Translations under genes and position numbers: made by a program
Shown here: positions 21,472-35,224 of the stretch, piece after piece
Layout of the letters: every line of letters begins with the position of its first letter
Position numbering within the stretch: position 1 is the first letter of the stretch
NCBI GenBank assembly: GCA_009840635.1
Contig: VXNL01000098.1
Location: 1 to 64,000 of the forward strand
Direction: 5' to 3'
DNA length: 64,000 nt
DNA from: Acidobacteriota bacterium
Lineage (GTDB): Bacteria > Acidobacteriota > Vicinamibacteria > Marinacidobacterales > Marinacidobacteraceae
The notes under the pieces: generated by a model
Database searches by the model: none
Seen by the model: the letters and a program-made list of their open reading frames with translations, nothing else
Told to the model about the DNA's origin: nothing

Positions 21472-21885
21472 GCACGGAAGCGTAGCAGTCTCCTTCGCAA
21501 GGCCGGGACCACGGCCGCAACGCCTTCACCGCAGGGTCGCCGGGAATTCACGAACCGCGGATTGTCCGACTCAGGGCGGTGAATCGCCTGCGGTGTTTCT
21601 GAATCGAACCGGCGCACCGGATACGGAATCCAAGGCGCCGATGAACCGGACATCCGGGTTTCCGGGGCAATCTCGCGGCCGGAACCGCGGATTCCCGGGC
21701 TAACCGCCGGACGCGGTCGGCGGGAGGTCCGGGCGCGTCCCTTGCGCCTTCCTGAGGACATGCACGGCAACGCGCCGCGGTCGCTCCGGGCTCCGGAAAC
21801 GACGCGAATTCAAAAAACGCCGGTCCCGTCCCGCGCACCGGGCGCGAAGCCGCAACCCCAACCCCCCCAAGGAGAAGCACTTCCC
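21472..21885. other. Intergenic region between nfu and receptor 1
   Basis: About 410 bp between divergent genes. I find no supported coding gene, tRNA or terminator. A purine-rich AAGGAG ribosome site lies at the right end, 10 bp before the receptor ATG. The sequence is GC-rich, with several short inverted ccgg-type stems, and probably holds the promoters of both flanking genes. Confidence 0.5.
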
Positions 21886-24759
21886 ATGAAACCACTCATT
21901 CCCCTGGCGCTCGCGTTCTGGGCGCTGGCCGGTTCCGCCGCCTTCGGCCAGACGGCGGGAGAGATCGAGGGCCGGGTCACCGACGCACAGGGCCTCGCCG
22001 TACCGGGAGCGACCGTCACCCTCTCTGGCGAAGCCCTCATCACCGAACAAAGCGCCGTGACGCTGAGCGACGGCTCCTACCGCTTCCGCTCGCTGCGCCG
22101 CGGCGCCTACAACCTGCGGTTCGAGATCTCCGGGTTCCAGACGCTGGTGCGCGAGGGCATCATCGTCGAAGGAAACCGCACCATCACCGTGCCCGTGACC
22201 CTCGAGGTCGCCAACGTGGCGGAAACCGTGACCGTCACCGGTGAAGCGCCGGTGGTGGACGTCCGGACGACGGCGCTCTCCACCGACTTCGGGACCGAGG
22301 CCCTCCACGAGGTGCCCTCGGCGACCGATGTCTGGGCGGTGCTCGCCCAGACTCCCGGCGTACGCATGCGCGGCTACGACGTCGGCGGCAGCCACAAGAG
22401 CCAGCAGACCGGCTACGAGAGCTTCGGGATCCGCCGCCAGAACCGGATCCTCGCCGACGGCGTGGACACCACGGAGGGCGAAAGCGGCACCGGCTTCTAC
22501 TTCGACTATTACTCCATCGAGGAGTTCACCACTTCGGCCGCCGGAGCGGACGTGGAGATGACCGGGCCCGGCTCGATGGTGGTGATGACCATGAAGAGCG
22601 GCGGCAACGAGTTCAGCGGCATGCTGCACGGTGACTACGAACACGGGTCGTTCGTCGGCAACAACGTGGACCGCGAGCTGGAGGCCCGGAACTTCACGGG
22701 CAATCCGAACATCCTGTTCTGGGAGGCCCACGCCGACCTCGGCGGCCCGATCGTGGAGGACCGCGCCTGGTTCTACGGCTTCTACAACCACTTCCGGATC
22801 GACAAGCAGATCTCCGGAGTGGACCCCAACCTGGCGACCGACCTCGGCGACTTCGACCAGTTCGGCGGCAAGGTCACGGCGCAGCTGACCAGCCGGGACC
22901 AGCTCATCGCCTACACCAACTACCAGTTGAAGGAGAAGCCGCAGCGCGGCCTATCGAACACGGTCGGACCCGACTCGGTCCTCGCGCAGGCGAGCTGGAG
23001 CTGGGCGCACAAGGGCGAATGGCAGCGCGTCTGGGACGACCGCACCTTCTCGACGCTCGCCGTCAAGCACTTCGGGTTCGGCTGGCCGATGGTTCCGCAG
23101 GTCGATCCCGAGTCGAATCCGCCGCGCTTCGACCAGGCGACCGGGATCCATACCGGCGCCGGCTGGAACACCAACATCACGGGAACGCCACCGTTCACGT
23201 TCGAACGCTGGAAGCCGCAGGTGACCGCAACCCTCAGTCACTACGTCCCCGATTTCCTCGGCAGCCACGACTTCAAGGTCGGGTACGAGTTCCAGATCGA
23301 CAGCCGGAAATTCGGCGCCAATTCCAACTCCGGCCACGTGCGCTACATAGACAACAGCACCCTCGGGCGGCCCAACGACGTGGACCAGATCGCGCTCTTC
23401 AGCATGCCCGCCGACGGCCAGATCAACGCCGATTCCCGGAACACCCACCACGACGTGTTCGCCCAGGACACCTGGCGGCCGCACGCGCGGGTGACGCTGA
23501 ACATCGGCGTCCGCTACGGGCAGCAGCGGACCCACTTCCTCGACTCGGAGTCGAACCCGTTCTTCGCCGACTTCTTCCCGACCGGCGTGACCGAGGGGCA
23601 GACGCTCGTCACCTGGAACACCTGGGCGCCCCGGCTGGGCGCGACCTACGAGATCGCCCCGGGGACGGTCCTGAAAGGCCACTACGGTCGCTACTACGTG
23701 AACCTCGCCGACGCGCACCGGCGCGCCGACCCGGCGAACGTGGCGTGGGTCCGGTTCGACTTCCTCGACCAGAACGCGAACGGCCTCTATGACGGCGCCC
23801 ACGAACTCGGAACCCTCCGGGCCGAAAGCGGCGCCACCGGCACCGCGATCCGTACCCTGGGAACGCCGGTGAACCCGGACCTGGAGAAGGAGTACGTGGA
23901 CGAGTTCAGCGTCTCCTTCGAGCACGAACTCGTCGCCGACACCGCCCTGCGCGCGTCCTACGTGCACAAGCGGTTGAACGCCGACAGCGGCCAGTGGAAC
24001 GTCGCCCAGCAGACGGCGCTCCTCGACGGCCGCGGCATCCCGTGCGGCGCGGACTTCGACTGTCCGGTGAACGCGCTCACCGGGGCGCCGATCAACGTGC
24101 AGCGGGTGCCGGACGACGTCGCCGACGTGGTGGACATCCGGACCGACACCTTCCCCGGGATGGAAGCCAGGTACGACACGATCCAGGTCGCGGCGAACCG
24201 GCGTTTCGCCGGCGGGTTCTTCGTCCAGGCGAGCTTCGACTACCAGTGGCGCGACGAGTTCCGCGCCGCCTCGGGAGAATGGAGAAGCCCCCTGGGCGCC
24301 GATCCGATCGACGTGGGTTCCGACGGCCACGGCACCATCTGGCAGAACCACAGCCTCGACGTGGACTTCCGCCAGGAAACCACCAACTGGAACGGGCGGC
24401 TGCTCGCCCGCTACTCGCTGCCCTACGGCGTCGCGGTGTCGGGCAACATCCGTTACCAGAGCGGCTGGCCCTGGGCGCCGATCCAGCGCGTCTCGATTCC
24501 GGGTTCCGGCACCCAGCCGGTGTTCCTGTCGAACCTCGACGAGAACCGCTCCGATGACGTAACGATCGCCGATTTCCGCATCGAGAAGGGGTTCGCTGTC
24601 GGGAACGGCGCGCTCCTCACCGCGATGGTGGACGTCTACAACGCGTTCAACTCGAATGCGGTGTCCAACTTCAACCTGCGCACCGGCTCCAACTACAACA
24701 ACGTGATCGCCGCGATCGATCCCCGCGCCGCCAAGGTCGGCCTCCGACTGACCTTCTAG
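21886..24759 (+). CDS. TonB-dependent receptor with N-terminal carboxypeptidase-regulatory-like domain (paralogue 1)
   Basis: 957 residues. A signal peptide (MKPLIPLALAFWALAGSAAF) is followed by a carboxypeptidase-regulatory-like domain (about 25-115) and a plug domain containing VAETVTVTGEAPVVD and the local signature YDVGGSHKSQQ. A long beta-barrel ends in LRLTF with the terminal Phe needed for barrel assembly. This is the Oar-like receptor architecture of Acidobacteriota, used for uptake of large substrates; the substrate is unknown. The ATG at 21886 follows AAGGAG. The next gene is a secreted metalloprotease, which suggests peptide uptake. It is the most divergent of the five local paralogues. 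Confidence 0.9.
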   Translation: MKPLIPLALAFWALAGSAAFGQTAGEIEGRVTDAQGLAVPGATVTLSGEALITEQSAVTLSDGSYRFRSLRRGAYNLRFEISGFQTLVREGIIVEGNRTITVPVTLEVANVAETVTVTGEAPVVDVRTTALSTDFGTEALHEVPSATDVWAVLAQTPGVRMRGYDVGGSHKSQQTGYESFGIRRQNRILADGVDTTEGESGTGFYFDYYSIEEFTTSAAGADVEMTGPGSMVVMTMKSGGNEFSGMLHGDYEHGSFVGNNVDRELEARNFTGNPNILFWEAHADLGGPIVEDRAWFYGFYNHFRIDKQISGVDPNLATDLGDFDQFGGKVTAQLTSRDQLIAYTNYQLKEKPQRGLSNTVGPDSVLAQASWSWAHKGEWQRVWDDRTFSTLAVKHFGFGWPMVPQVDPESNPPRFDQATGIHTGAGWNTNITGTPPFTFERWKPQVTATLSHYVPDFLGSHDFKVGYEFQIDSRKFGANSNSGHVRYIDNSTLGRPNDVDQIALFSMPADGQINADSRNTHHDVFAQDTWRPHARVTLNIGVRYGQQRTHFLDSESNPFFADFFPTGVTEGQTLVTWNTWAPRLGATYEIAPGTVLKGHYGRYYVNLADAHRRADPANVAWVRFDFLDQNANGLYDGAHELGTLRAESGATGTAIRTLGTPVNPDLEKEYVDEFSVSFEHELVADTALRASYVHKRLNADSGQWNVAQQTALLDGRGIPCGADFDCPVNALTGAPINVQRVPDDVADVVDIRTDTFPGMEARYDTIQVAANRRFAGGFFVQASFDYQWRDEFRAASGEWRSPLGADPIDVGSDGHGTIWQNHSLDVDFRQETTNWNGRLLARYSLPYGVAVSGNIRYQSGWPWAPIQRVSIPGSGTQPVFLSNLDENRSDDVTIADFRIEKGFAVGNGALLTAMVDVYNAFNSNAVSNFNLRTGSNYNNVIAAIDPRAAKVGLRLTF

Positions 24760-24858
24760 GCAGAACCTCCCCCGGTGGGCGGCGGTCTTCCGCCGCCCAC
24801 CCGGCCCGTGCAGCAGCTCCGTTTGGCACGGAGTTTTCTTGCCCCGACGGGCACTGCG

Positions 24859-26001
24859 ATGTCAGGTAGCGGGCTACAGAATCGGTCGGCGTCCGGCCGG
24901 GCGCATCGGCGCCGCTGGTCGGTAGGCGTGATCGCCCTGATGGCCGCGAGCCTGCCGGCCAGTCCGGGCGAGACCTACCGGTTCTTCCAGCGCCTCGGCG
25001 ACTGGAACGAGGTCACTTCGTCTGCCGGTGCCAGCGTCTGGGAAGCGCAAGATCTCCCGCTGCGTTTCCGGTTGCTCGAGAACGCAAACCTGCCGGATCA
25101 TGAAGGACTGGATGCCGAGGTCTGGCGCGAGATCAACCGGGGCTCCATCGCCGCCTGGGTGGACGTTCCCACCGCCGCCGTCGGAATTGTGCTGGAGAGT
25201 GAATTGGTGCTGGCCGACCAGGCGAGCGATACGGACGGAATCAACACGATCGGCTTCTCGTCGTACGAAGGCTTCGTGGACAGCTGGTTCTCCGGATTTG
25301 CGCGTTCGGTCTGGCAGGACGGGAAGAAGGTCGGGTGCGACATCGAAGTCACCCCGTACTACTTCGAACGAACCCCGGTGGACGAACCGGACGCCGAGCG
25401 GCGGTCGGTTCGCGACCTCTATCCGTTCATCACGCACGAGATGGGCCACTGCCTGGGCCTCGCCCACACCGCCATGAACCCGATGTGGCTCGGCCGGCCG
25501 GGACCGGCGGACTGGGAGCCGGGTGTCTTGCCCGAAGGGATCGCCACCTTCCAGCCGCATCCCATCATGTCCTACGGATCCAGCTTCCGCTCGGCCGACC
25601 TGACTCCCGACGACGCCCACGCGATCACCCTGGCGTACCCGGCGCCCGGATTCCTGGAGTCCCGGGGCGCCATCGGCGGACGGGTGGTGTTCCCGAGCGG
25701 AGATCCGGTGCCGACGGCCTACGTGCAGACGGTGGATTACTCGGGTGGCTCGGCAGCCTTCGGACCGGGCGCCTTCACAGACCGGCGAGGCCAGTTCATG
25801 CTGGAGGGAATGCGCCCCGGTCCCATCCACGTCTGGGTGCGTCCGCTGATCGCCTCCCGGGCGCATGGGACCCTGGAACTCGCGATGGAAGCGGGGTCGC
25901 TCGACCTGGTGGACCGACAGCGTTGGTTCCGGGTACGTGCCGGGGAAGTCACGCTCGTTCCCGACATCGTCGTCGAACGCGGCCGGGAGTCCGGTCAATG
26001 A
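24859..26001 (+). CDS. Matrixin-type secreted zinc metalloprotease with C-terminal regulatory-like domain
   Basis: About 380 residues from the ATG at 24859. A hydrophobic N-terminal segment (about 21-33) serves for export. The zinc motif HEMGHCLGLAH lies at 193-203, and the Met-turn IMSYG about 33 residues later, both as in metzincins of the matrixin group. A carboxypeptidase-regulatory-like beta domain (about 265-375) ends the protein. It probably degrades extracellular protein whose fragments are imported by receptor 1, 99 bp upstream. The stop overlaps the next ATG (ATGA). Confidence 0.85.
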   Translation: MSGSGLQNRSASGRAHRRRWSVGVIALMAASLPASPGETYRFFQRLGDWNEVTSSAGASVWEAQDLPLRFRLLENANLPDHEGLDAEVWREINRGSIAAWVDVPTAAVGIVLESELVLADQASDTDGINTIGFSSYEGFVDSWFSGFARSVWQDGKKVGCDIEVTPYYFERTPVDEPDAERRSVRDLYPFITHEMGHCLGLAHTAMNPMWLGRPGPADWEPGVLPEGIATFQPHPIMSYGSSFRSADLTPDDAHAITLAYPAPGFLESRGAIGGRVVFPSGDPVPTAYVQTVDYSGGSAAFGPGAFTDRRGQFMLEGMRPGPIHVWVRPLIASRAHGTLELAMEAGSLDLVDRQRWFRVRAGEVTLVPDIVVERGRESGQ

Positions 26002-26933
26002 GGGAAGAGCGCCGGGCCCTCGCCGCGGTCGCCATCCCCATCCTCCTCGCGGCGGCCTGTCAGTCGGGCGCCGGGGATTCACCTCCACTTCCGACCTCTC
26101 CTCCGCCAACGGCCCGCGTCGCTCCTCCGGAGGAAGTTCGGTTGATACCGATGGGTTTCCGCGGTCCGCTGTTCCAGCCGGGCGTACCCCTGCCTCTCGA
26201 ACCGGGAATGCGACTCACCGTCCCCGTCATGACGCACGTCCGAGACTTCGGGGACGCCGACGGAATCCCGGGCATCCTCATCCGGGTAGAGACCGACGCT
26301 CCGCCCGCAGTCCTCACGGTGAGCGAACAAATCGCGGTCAAGGGATGGGCAGAGCCGGGACTTGTGGAAGTCCGCGCGGTGGAGACGTTCTCCAGCGGAG
26401 CGCCGGCGGCGACATACCAGATCTGGCTGGAGGAACACCCGGAACAGGTCTGGGCGCCAGGATTCGCATTGGCGCTTGACGAGAGGCGGCTTCTGGTCGC
26501 CGTAACGGAAGCCTCGCCGCCTCCGGCGCCATGTGAGCGGCTCGAAGTGACGGGCACGGTCACGTCAGGTGTGAAGGACGGGGGTGATCGAGCGCGGCTC
26601 ACCTTTGGATCTCTGGCCGACGACTTCCGCTCTGGAACGATCACTCTGCGCGCGGACCATCCGGAGACGTCCCTGAGTCTGGTCTCCGAATACCGGATGC
26701 CCTACGAGAATCTCGACCCCGAATCGGACCGGGCTCGAGTCACGTACCGTCCCTATCCGACGACCTTCCTCTTCGGCCTCGGTTTCCGGGAAACGGGGGT
26801 TGGCTTCGAGCAGACGATGTCACTCGGCTGGTTCGACGAATTCCACCTCCGCGCCGAAGCGCCGGGCTGCGACCCGGTGAACCTGTCATGCGACGAAACG
26901 GGACGCTGTTCTCCGGGAAGCCCAGCTCCATGA
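25998..26933 (+). CDS. Putative lipoprotein of the matrixin operon, function unknown
   Basis: 311 residues with an N-terminal lipobox (LLAAAC, Cys21) after a basic start, so it is lipid-anchored in the envelope. The mature part begins with a Pro/Thr-rich linker and then reads as beta-strand-rich sequence with no motif I recognise. The ATG at 25998 overlaps the TGA of the protease gene, and its own TGA overlaps the ATG of the next gene. All three are therefore one translationally coupled unit. It could be a protease partner, inhibitor or anchoring factor. Confidence 0.7.
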   Translation: MREERRALAAVAIPILLAAACQSGAGDSPPLPTSPPPTARVAPPEEVRLIPMGFRGPLFQPGVPLPLEPGMRLTVPVMTHVRDFGDADGIPGILIRVETDAPPAVLTVSEQIAVKGWAEPGLVEVRAVETFSSGAPAATYQIWLEEHPEQVWAPGFALALDERRLLVAVTEASPPPAPCERLEVTGTVTSGVKDGGDRARLTFGSLADDFRSGTITLRADHPETSLSLVSEYRMPYENLDPESDRARVTYRPYPTTFLFGLGFRETGVGFEQTMSLGWFDEFHLRAEAPGCDPVNLSCDETGRCSPGSPAP

Positions 26934-27601
26934 CCTCGGCGCCCCGGACGCGGAATGTCCTTCGACGCCGTCTCCTTGCGAGTGCGAAACTACGTTCGCT
27001 GAGCGAAACACCGATGACCGCGAACCCATCCGCCTGGCGCCACCGATCGGAGGCGGCGCCTCTCCTCGGAACCGCCGCGGCCCTCGTCGCCGTGTTCCTC
27101 GTTCCTGGAGATCTCGCGGCCCAGCACCGTGAGCCGATCCAGTCGCCCTTCGCGCCGCTTGGGATCCAGAGGATGTCCGAACTGGCGACGCAGGTGGTGG
27201 CGGGGACTATCGAGAAGATGGAATCGACCTGGAACCACGACCATTCGCGAATCTACACCCGGGTGACGATGCGGGTCGAACGAGTGCTGTCGGGCCAGGC
27301 CGGCAGGCAGATCGTGTTCCGCATCCCGGGCGGAACGGTCGGAGACACCACCGTCATGGTTTCGGAAATGCCGCACTTCCGGGAGGGCGAGGACACGGTC
27401 GTCTTCCTGCGCGGCTCCCGGGGGCGCCTGCCGTCGGTCCTCGGCGGGGTGGAAGGAAAGATGCCGCTTGCCCGCGCCGACGACGGGAGCCTCAGCCTGT
27501 TGTTTCCAATCCAGCTTGCATCGGAAGGAGACGCCAGCGCCGCCACCCACGAACTCGAAGACCTGGAGAGTCTGGTGCGCGGCCACGCCCTGCGCCGATA
27601 G
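26930..27601 (+). CDS. Secreted protein, third gene of the matrixin operon
   Basis: About 223 residues from the ATG at 26930, which overlaps the preceding TGA. An in-frame ATG at 27014 would give a more typical signal peptide ending VPGDLAAQ. The mature region (ELATQVVAGTIEKMES, VTMRVERVLSGQAG, FRIPGGTVGD, FREGEDTVVFLRG) looks like a compact beta-sandwich. From general knowledge, similar segments occur next to or fused with matrixin domains in secreted proteins; I could not check this. It is the last gene before a convergent intergenic region. Confidence 0.65.
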   Translation: MTSAPRTRNVLRRRLLASAKLRSLSETPMTANPSAWRHRSEAAPLLGTAAALVAVFLVPGDLAAQHREPIQSPFAPLGIQRMSELATQVVAGTIEKMESTWNHDHSRIYTRVTMRVERVLSGQAGRQIVFRIPGGTVGDTTVMVSEMPHFREGEDTVVFLRGSRGRLPSVLGGVEGKMPLARADDGSLSLLFPIQLASEGDASAATHELEDLESLVRGHALRR

Positions 27602-32198: not shown

Positions 32199-32322
32199 CG
32201 GTTCATTAATTTGAATGTTCCGTCCCGCTTCGCGATTCGAAATGCCGTGCCAGGGTGCGGTACGTCGAATAACCAGGCGGTCAGCGGAAGCTCCCCTTGT
32301 CTTTTCCCGTGAAGGAGGGACC

Positions 32323-35224
32323 ATGAGAAAGATTCTTTTCGCTCTTCTGCTCCTCGCGTTCGCCGTGCCGGCGACCGCCCAGCAGCAGTACGGGCGCCTC
32401 GAAGGCGCCGCTCGCGACGCTCAGGGACTCGCCCTCCCCGGAGTGTCGGTCAGCCTCACCGGTGAGGCCATCATCGGAGGCCGGAACGCCACGACCGACA
32501 TCGACGGCTCCTACCGGTTCCAGGCACTGCCTCCGGGCGACTACAACATCCAGTTCGAACTGAGCGGCTTCCAGACCGTGGTGTTCGAAGCCGTGCGTGT
32601 CGTGACCGGCGCCACCTTCACCGTGGACGCCAACATGCAGATCGCGACGGTGGCGGAAACGGTCACCGTGACCGGCGAGTCACCGGTGGTGGACGTGAAG
32701 TCCACCGGCGTGGCGGCAACCTTCGACAAGACCCAGCTCGACGAGGTCCCCACCGCAACCGACATGTGGGCCGTGCTTCAGCAGAGCCCGGGAGTCCGGG
32801 TGCAGGGGTTCGACGTGGGCGGCTCGCACAAGAGCCAGCAGTCCATGTACGAGACCTTACGGGGTGCGGAGCCAGAACCGGGTCCTCTACGAGGGCGTGA
32901 ACACTACCGAGGGTTCCGGCAGCGCGGGCGGTTACTACGACTACTACGCGATGGAGGAGATGCAGGTCTCGGCGCAGGGCTCGGACGTGGAGATGTCCAC
33001 CCCGGGCGCGCAGATCCAGACGACCGTCAAGAGCGGCGGTAACGAGTTCTCCGGTCTCGAGAGCGGGGCCTGGAATCCGGCCGACTGGATCGCCGACAAC
33101 TTCGACAGCGAACTCGAGTCCAACAACGCCTCCGCGGCCCCGGTGCTCAAGTTTTACGAGTACCACATCGATCTGGGCGGCCCCATCGTCCGGGACAAGG
33201 CGTGGTTCTACGCGGCCTACAACAACTTCTACATCGACACCGCGGTATCGGGTCAGCCGATCGAACTCGGCACCGACGTCGGAGACTTCGACATCTTCAC
33301 CGCCAAGGTGAACTACCAGGTCACCGAGCGCGACCAGTTCATCGGCTTTTCGACCTGGTCGTGGAAGCGGAAGCCCAACCGCTCCATTTCGGCCACGATC
33401 CCGGCGGAGTCGGTGCTGGCCCAGGACTACTGGATCTGGCTGCACAAGGCCGAGTGGCAGCGGGTCTGGAGCGACCGGCTCTACAGCAACATCATGGTCG
33501 GCCATATGGGCACGGTCTGGCCCATGACCCCCAAGGGCGACCCCATCAACGGGAACGAGCCGCGTATCGAGGCGACCAACAACCTGCGCTCGGGCGCCGG
33601 CTGGCAGCCCTTCACCTCGAAGCGCTGGAAGCCGCAGAGCACGGGTCAGTTCAACTACTACGTCCCGATCGGTACGGGCAGCCACGACTTCAAGTTCGGC
33701 TGGGACTGGCAGCTCGACTCGCAGCTCTTCGGCTGGAACTCCAACTCCGGGGCGGTCCGCTACCTCGACGACATGAACGAGGGGCGGCCCCACGACGTGG
33801 ACCGCGTCCTTCTGGTGGGCGTCCCGAACCTCACCGACGACCGGAACATGCACGCGGACTTCTTCGCGCAGGACGTCTGGACGGTGAACGACCGCTTGAC
33901 GGTAACGCTCGGTTTCCGGGTCGGCAGCCAGATCCTTTCCTACCTGGAATCGGACAACAAGCCGGGCAGTCCCTGCCCCGACTCGCTGCTCTGCCAGTTC
34001 GAACTGCCGTCCAACCAGTCCACCTACCTCACCGAGGTCTTCGGCGCCGGCGCCACCATCCCGGGCGACCATGTCTATTCGCACTGGAACGTCGCCCCCC
34101 GGGCGGGCTTCACCTACGACATCACGGGTGAAGGCACTTCGGTGTTCAAGGCGTATGCCGGACGTTACTACTCGAACATCGGCACCGGTCTCGGCTCCGC
34201 GAACCCGGGTGGACAGGCAAGCGCCACCTACATCTTCGCCGATCAGAACATGAACGGGGTGCTCGAGGATTCATCCGAACTCGGAGAGCGGCTCACGTTC
34301 AATGCCGGCGCCGGAGCGGGAACGCCCATCGACCCGAACTGGGACCTGGCCTGGGCCGACGAGGCCAGCGCCGCGATCGAGCACGAGCTCACCGCCGACC
34401 TCGGATCCAGGGTCTCCTATGTGTACAAGCGGATGCGGAATACCTGGTCGAGCGGCCTGAACCAGGTGCTCCTCAACAACCGCAACACCTCGATCGCGCT
34501 CGGTAACGCCGAGGGCTGCGCCGGTGACTGTCCCGCCGGCTACAGCCGCTCGTTCAACCTGCGGGTCATCCCGGAGGACCTGGTGGGGGCGACCGACAAC
34601 ATCACGATGAACCATCCGGGCGGCGAGAGCGACATGGACTTCCACACCCTGTCGCTGGCGTTGAACAAGCGGTTCCGCAACAACTTCTTCTACAACGTCT
34701 ACTTCGACTACCAGTGGCGGTCCGAGCCGCGGAGCCCCGGCACCTCGTCCACCTCGTGGGCGGCCCGGAACCCCCTTTCGGCGGACCCCACCGCCCAAGG
34801 CTGGTTCATTAACTACGACCAGGACATCCCGACGGTGCAGGACACCAGCACCTACCAGTTCAAGACCTCGGCCCGCTACGTGCTGCCGTACGACATCGGG
34901 CTCGCCGGTACCTACCGGCTGATCAGCGGCTTCAACTTCGCCCCGACCCACCGGCTTAGCATCTATGGCGGAAGCCTGAAGCCCTACGTCTGGCTGGCGC
35001 CCATGAACGAGGATCGCTCCGACAACGTGGCCATCCTCGACTTCCGGGTGGACAAGTCGTTCGAGATCGGTGACGGAATACGCATCCAGGGCATCGTCGA
35101 CCTGTTCAACGCGCTGAACGCCAACACGGTGACGAACTTCCAGTTGCTCGATACGGCGTATCGGAACGTCGTGGACTACCTGAAAGGACGAACGATCGGG
35201 TTCTCGGCGAGGTTGACTTTCTGA
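32323..35224 (+). pseudogene. TonB-dependent receptor paralogue 2, split by a 1-base insertion
   Basis: The start (ATG at 32323, preceded by aaggaggg) and residues 1-178 match paralogue 3 closely: signal peptide, carboxypeptidase-regulatory-like domain and plug up to YET. At 32859 there is an extra A (accttacgggg here, accttcgggg in paralogue 3 at about 36017). The frame then shifts and ends at 33042. The remaining plug and barrel, ending SARLTF at 35224, are intact in the next frame. Without the insertion it would be a normal receptor of about 966 residues. It is either a recent pseudogene, a phase-variable allele or an assembly error; the rest of the frame shows no other decay. Confidence 0.85.

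Follow-up and report, generated by a model that had tools for sequence, protein, structure and literature searches.

The main discovery in the window, the whole stretch of 64,000 nucleotides analysed here, is a family of small secreted proteins that has neither a name nor a Pfam model and that is tied to metzincin proteases by gene order, overlap and repeated fusion. Its members are predicted to adopt a netrin/TIMP-type fold and are referred to as NTR. The window's genome (G000) is a 3.58-Mb draft. The organism is a member of a sponge-symbiont clade according to the records of its named relatives, which are Acidobacteriota MAGs, several of them from the marine sponges Ircinia (PMC9531527) and Aplysina aerophoba (PMC5649159). 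The original prediction described three coupled genes, coding for a metzincin protease (PRO), a lipoprotein (LIP) and a secreted beta protein (gene 3); three such genes do follow one another on the plus strand. The features of the locus are as follows:

21742..24759, + strand: receptor 1, an Oar-like TonB-dependent receptor and a neighbour only (OMP_b-brl_4 and CarboxypepD_reg)
24774..24801, + strand: perfect 12-bp hairpin GGTGGGCGGCGG TCTT CCGCCGCCCACC without a T-run, in the gap between receptor 1 and PRO (read from the sequence)
24859..26001, + strand: PRO (P0001), secreted matrixin-like metzincin protease of 380 aa (zinc motif, invariant Met, family profile matches)
25998..26001, + strand: ATGA in which the PRO stop and the LIP start overlap, translational coupling (overlap kept in relatives)
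25998..26933, + strand: LIP (P0002), lipoprotein (lipobox LAAAC with its Cys at 26058; position after PRO)
26930..26933, + strand: ATGA at the LIP stop, probably coincidental (orthologues without the extra N-terminus; conserved leader further 3')
26982..26998, + strand: leader GTGCGAAACTACGTTCG with a GCGAA...TTCGC inverted repeat, before the NTR start (conserved in G004, G007 and G008)
27014..27601, + strand: NTR (P0003 from Met29), secreted, predicted netrin/TIMP-type OB barrel (orthologue starts, AF2/Foldseek)
about 27140-27517, + strand: NTR domain of gene 3 (predicted barrel)

PRO consists of a signal peptide, a metzincin catalytic domain (about 25018-25656) and a CarboxypepD_reg-like C-terminal domain. 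The zinc-binding motif HExxHxxGxxH is present as HEMGHCLGLAH, and Met237 of the Met-turn region HPIMSYG is invariant in 16 relatives. On its own, PRO reaches 17.6 bits against PF00413, which is below the Pfam cut-off of 24; 13 of the 16 relatives match this model at E <= 0.01 (best 1.2e-6), and the family profile matched MMP-11 (E 5e-5) and MMP-16 in the PDB. The nearest NCBIfam model, over the zinc-binding region, is that of the myxosortase-dependent metalloprotease family MXAN_2677/2678 (NF041905); however, PRO scores 17.9 bits against a cut-off of 250 bits. In the relatives of PRO, the catalytic domain starts approximately 20-25 residues past the signal peptide and, as judged by eye, leaves no room for the cysteine-switch prodomain of animal MMPs. 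Genomes of the window's order carry many PRO relatives, up to 13 per genome. Cys160 and Cys198 of P0001, one of which sits within the zinc motif (HExGHC), are both found in LIP-paired PROs and are both missing in the class of PROs encoded after an NTR gene. This pattern (L107-L119) suggests that the two may pair in a disulfide, which comes and goes as a whole.

PRO and LIP form a true two-gene unit, a recurrent cassette whose copies are found at many different sites. LIP is encoded after PRO in the relatives, and none of the 31 LIP relatives in the order's genomes lies away from a PRO gene, bar three at contig ends. The original prediction saw the trio as coupled by two ATGA overlaps, and the first of these holds well, since a 4-bp (A/G)TGA overlap is present at 25 of the 27 PRO-LIP junctions read. 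A PRO-LIP pair is also encoded in a Gemmatimonadetes MAG (L177, 10184-11979), which comes from the same sponge survey judging by its isolate name; exchange between symbionts sharing one host is a possible explanation. LIP is composed of a lipobox, a proline-rich linker and two predicted Ig-like beta domains, and most relatives read possess a lipobox and a Cys equivalent to that of LAAAC. The AF2 model of LIP, which was built from 12 sequences and is of modest quality (pLDDT 74, pTM 0.52), contains two beta-sandwich domains; its structural matches are all generic Ig sandwiches, and the attempt to identify LIP from its fold was rejected for this reason. At three loci, PRO carries the C-terminal domain of LIP as an extension at its own C-terminus (L095, E 6e-6; L157 and L159, E 0.003-0.007).

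We read LIP as the putative membrane-anchored form of a protease accessory domain. The secreted matrixin would be co-translated with an anchored lipoprotein, whose C-terminal domain is elsewhere the C-terminal part of the protease proper, and we infer that LIP holds or presents PRO at the cell surface. Alternatively, PRO could cleave or process LIP instead of being anchored by it, as Tim of Listeria monocytogenes is cut and released by the metzincin Mtz. The strict pairing and the PRO-LIP order, which corresponds to that of mtz and tim (PMC8235301), are in line with this idea; however, LIP is predicted to be Ig-like and not TIMP-like, and its C-terminal domain is retained when it is fused to PRO, and LIP is quite unlikely to be a mere target of the protease.

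The linkage of NTR to proteases reaches far beyond the window. Each of the 29 best phylum-wide loci outside the window's genome has a metzincin next to NTR, either as the immediately following gene in the same orientation or as part of one continuous reading frame. An enlarged sample of 92 loci, made up of these 29, 60 further down the score list and three found earlier, contains 93-94 NTR domains; 60 are located directly upstream of a PRO gene, 25 are fused to PRO, one lies downstream and eight are without PRO. Four of these eight are found at contig ends and four have an intact neighbourhood. The latter are the true exceptions and correspond to an NTR subfamily without a metzincin nearby (L230, L249, L252 and L268; FDEKVE..A.SIILGK). 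The control, which covered 54 stretches (239 kb), yielded a single motif match besides the PRO of the window; when the latter is left out, one of 53 stretches was positive by regular expression and none by profile. On the NTR domain tree, at least seven changes between the fused and the separate state are counted, although this number is rough owing to the few alignment columns.

NTR proteins are encoded in 109 of the 297 sampled Acidobacteriota genomes, covering 77 of 169 genera, and in 58 of 114 genomes of a second phylum, to which a Bacteriovoracaceae genome belongs; no family members were found in viral contigs or in plasmids. A second set of 33 loci came mainly from this second phylum and included four from an earlier search. 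Here, 20 NTR genes are located upstream of a metzincin gene and one is fused to it, and for the other 12 no metzincin gene lies within about 1.5 kb. An NTR-metzincin fusion with a dockerin-like C-terminal end was seen in an unclassified bacterium (L189, 788-2545).

The product of gene 3 is a small, secreted, all-beta protein without a Pfam match, whose likeness to the TIMP/NTR barrel was noted from the sequence before any structure was available. An AF2 model of NTR, built from four sequences (core pLDDT about 84, pTM 0.60), was searched by Foldseek against 350,542 PDB chains. The 13 best matches were all of the NTR type, namely agrin NtA, complement C3/C4, TIMP-1 from a complex with MT1-MMP, TIMP-2 from a complex with MMP-13 and the NTR domain of PCOLCE; by these top 13 matches, the OB-type barrel of the model resembles NTR proteins more closely than it does other OB folds. 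The best E-value was 4e-4 and the TM-scores to agrin and the TIMPs range from 0.30 to 0.55 (0.3-0.5 for the TIMPs), so that the case for a predicted NTR/TIMP-type fold is good, but not decisive. When 34 diverse members were compared with 24,736 Pfam models, no model except Agrin NtA was hit by two or more members (three of 34, best E 0.14, which is below significance). The Pfam TIMP (PF00965) and NTR profiles gave no match above cut-off, and a membership of the family in either of them was rejected on this ground; the TIMP profile matched none of the family members compared and had no hit above cut-off in 198 genomes. Among solved structures, no convincing sequence relative of NTR was found; the match to the engineered protein 4rzp was discarded because it spans 36 residues only.

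In 68 of 93 NTR proteins, the best AxA cleavage site, called by a simple rule and not by SignalP, is located exactly seven residues before the domain. The first residue of the mature protein is Thr in 46 of the 93 and the second one is Thr, Val or Ser in 67; the typical mature NTR has a conserved Thr-Thr/Ser/Val-hydrophobic start. Conservation exactly at the mature N-terminus is unusual, and it is what a TIMP-like zinc-binding wedge would need. In TIMPs it is the N-terminal amino group that blocks the zinc, and the N-terminal wedge of TIMP-1, Cys1-Thr2-Cys3-Val4-Pro5, resembles the conserved Thr-Thr-Val-x-Pro starts of bacterial NTRs. The Pseudomonas inhibitor AprI reportedly also blocks the zinc through its N-terminal amino group (Hege et al. 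2001, cited in PMC8235301). We propose that NTR acts as the inhibitory or latency partner dedicated to bacterial matrixins, either as a separate protein encoded immediately upstream of the protease or as an N-terminal part of it. The free Thr1-Thr/Ser/Val2-hydrophobic end of a typical NTR probably plugs the active-site cleft, as TIMP and AprI do. PRO relatives have no visible classical prodomain, and latency or inhibition would come from NTR, in cis or in trans. The explanation as a whole, with PRO-LIP as an anchored cassette and NTR as an inhibitory or latency partner of matrixins, has in our estimation an even chance of being correct. A tentative proposal with a somewhat less than even chance is that genuine TIMP-like inhibitors of matrixins, whose free Thr-Thr N-terminus blocks the catalytic zinc, are present in two or more bacterial phyla.

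NTR domains also fill other roles; agrin NtA, for example, binds laminin. NTR might instead be a targeting or substrate-binding module, which directs the matrixin towards its substrate; LIP might be a second binding module, with neither of them acting as an inhibitor. The best structural and the sub-threshold profile matches are indeed to agrin NtA rather than to TIMP, and Ig-like domains such as those of LIP are typical of binding modules. However, the conserved mature N-terminus and the fixed location of NTR, either upstream of the protease or at its N-terminus, fit a wedge or pro-domain better, and we consider a pure binding role unlikely. The same location is reminiscent of classical pro-regions and, together with the 25 fusions, would suit a folding or secretion chaperone similar to a foldase-type propeptide, which assists the matrixin during export and is not a regulator thereafter. 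This function is very unlikely, as many NTR genes are separate and encode their own signal peptide, and LIP-paired PROs manage without an adjacent NTR.

The inhibitory or latency function favoured here for NTR invites a comparison with known protease-partner pairs. In the literature on matrixins and TIMPs together in bacteria, only the Mtz-Tim system of L. monocytogenes was found. It consists of a secreted metzincin, whose gene adjoins that of a predicted TIMP-resembling protein as a constant pair; Tim is a lipoprotein, which is encoded after the protease and cleaved by Mtz, and the system occurs in Gram-positive bacteria and prophages (PMC8235301). The authors stated that no other bacterial TIMP-like protein was on record in the literature (PMC8235301). 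A metzincin beside a TIMP-like partner is common to both systems; however, the NTR family differs from this precedent in its export signal (NTR is secreted via AxA-type signal peptides and has a free N-terminus), its gene order (NTR is encoded before the protease), its fusions to the protease N-terminus, its host phyla (Acidobacteriota and the second phylum) and probably its sequence class. The lipoprotein that does occur at the window, LIP, lacks the TIMP likeness of Tim. In the AprA-AprI pair of Pseudomonas, a bacterial metzincin likewise has a secreted inhibitor of its own, the part that NTR would play; however, AprI is a lipocalin-like barrel and not NTR-like, and AprA is a serralysin (M10B). 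Animal MMPs and TIMPs resemble the bacterial pairs in that a matrixin-type protease meets a partner with an NTR/OB fold, which is a predicted one in the bacteria. In contrast to TIMPs, P0003 contains no cysteine and hence lacks Cys1 and the conserved disulfides, there is no TIMP-profile match, and many bacterial NTRs are fused to the protease.

At the window itself, gene 3 lies next to PRO-LIP by chance of position, as judged by a comparison of this chromosomal site in six genomes of the same genus (G003-G008) and one of another genus (G002), in which site identity was set by the shared flanking receptor, DUF4097, FG-GAP and TPR genes. The receptor is followed by NTR in G004, G007 and G008 and by a Uma2-like gene and NTR in G003, G005 and G006, in each case without PRO-LIP, whereas G002 carries receptor, PRO and LIP and lacks NTR. 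All three genes are present only in the window among the genomes compared, and the trio was rejected as a conserved operon by this synteny. The gap between receptor 1 and NTR (window 24759-27014; L089-L094, L121) holds as cargo nothing, a Uma2-like gene (PF05685) or PRO-LIP. The PRO proteins of G002 and the window are 73-74% identical, which is close to the values of neighbouring genes (receptor 81%, NifU 77%, LptD 68%) and makes shared descent with losses as plausible as transfer. The original prediction had named a prevalence of the two unknown genes apart from matrixin genes as the outcome that would contradict it. Neither LIP nor the NTR family shows this pattern; among the closest orthologues of gene 3, however, it applies to six out of six.

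Gene 3 probably starts at ATG 27014 and not at the ATGA at 26930. In its orthologues the start codon corresponds to ATG 27014, and the extra N-terminus upstream is unconserved. The element GTGCGAAACTACGTTCG (26982-26998) is kept before NTR in G004, G007 and G008, which all lack PRO-LIP; it occurs once in the window and once per genome and is possibly an operator or leader element. The second ATGA string (26930-26933) does exist, but in view of the orthologue starts and the conservation of GTGCGAAACTACGTTCG in genomes lacking PRO-LIP it is probably a coincidence, and it was rejected as a coupling of LIP and gene 3.

The original prediction further placed the trio directly after receptor 1 and proposed that the three genes and the receptor form a degrade-and-import module. 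The position is correct and the adjacency recurs in G002; however, the 12-bp hairpin separates the receptor from PRO, a comparable hairpin is also located 3' of the receptor in relatives, and the receptor stays in place without PRO-LIP in the six genomes of the same genus. PRO-LIP copies also occur at many other sites. The link to the TonB receptor finds no support, and such a module is highly improbable. A second Oar-like receptor of the window (32215-35224) is split by a frameshift into ORFs in different frames (32215-33042 and 32864-35224), and its orthologue in G004 (L089, 2-1810) is a single reading frame; the frameshift may be a real mutation or an assembly error.

The NTR of the window and its nearest paralogues possess a longer and different N-terminus (AQHREPIQSPFAP...) and no Thr-Thr start, and the typical NTR-PRO pair of this genome is located elsewhere (G000:C25, L115). 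As a divergent member without the typical N-terminus, the window NTR may act on the window PRO at most as a possibility, and we regard an inhibition of this protease as doubtful; it may use another regulating surface, have a different PRO target or have lost its function. The earlier suggestion that the unknown genes may code for an inhibitor, an anchor or a substrate-binding partner fits well, with LIP as a putative membrane-anchored partner of PRO and gene 3 as a member of a metzincin-linked family with a predicted TIMP/NTR fold.

To our knowledge, little is known about how bacteria protect themselves from their own matrixin-type proteases. As the organism belongs to a sponge-symbiont clade, the extracellular matrix of animals is a possible target of the secreted matrixins. 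The linkage of the NTR family offers a direct test of how bacteria restrain such proteases. If inhibition were shown, NTR proteins would be cysteine-free metalloprotease inhibitors and a point of comparison when asking how the MMP-TIMP pair arose. TIMPs are regarded as an animal family; if TIMP-like inhibition in bacteria proved true, the partnership of matrixins and TIMPs would not be an animal invention, or it would have evolved twice.
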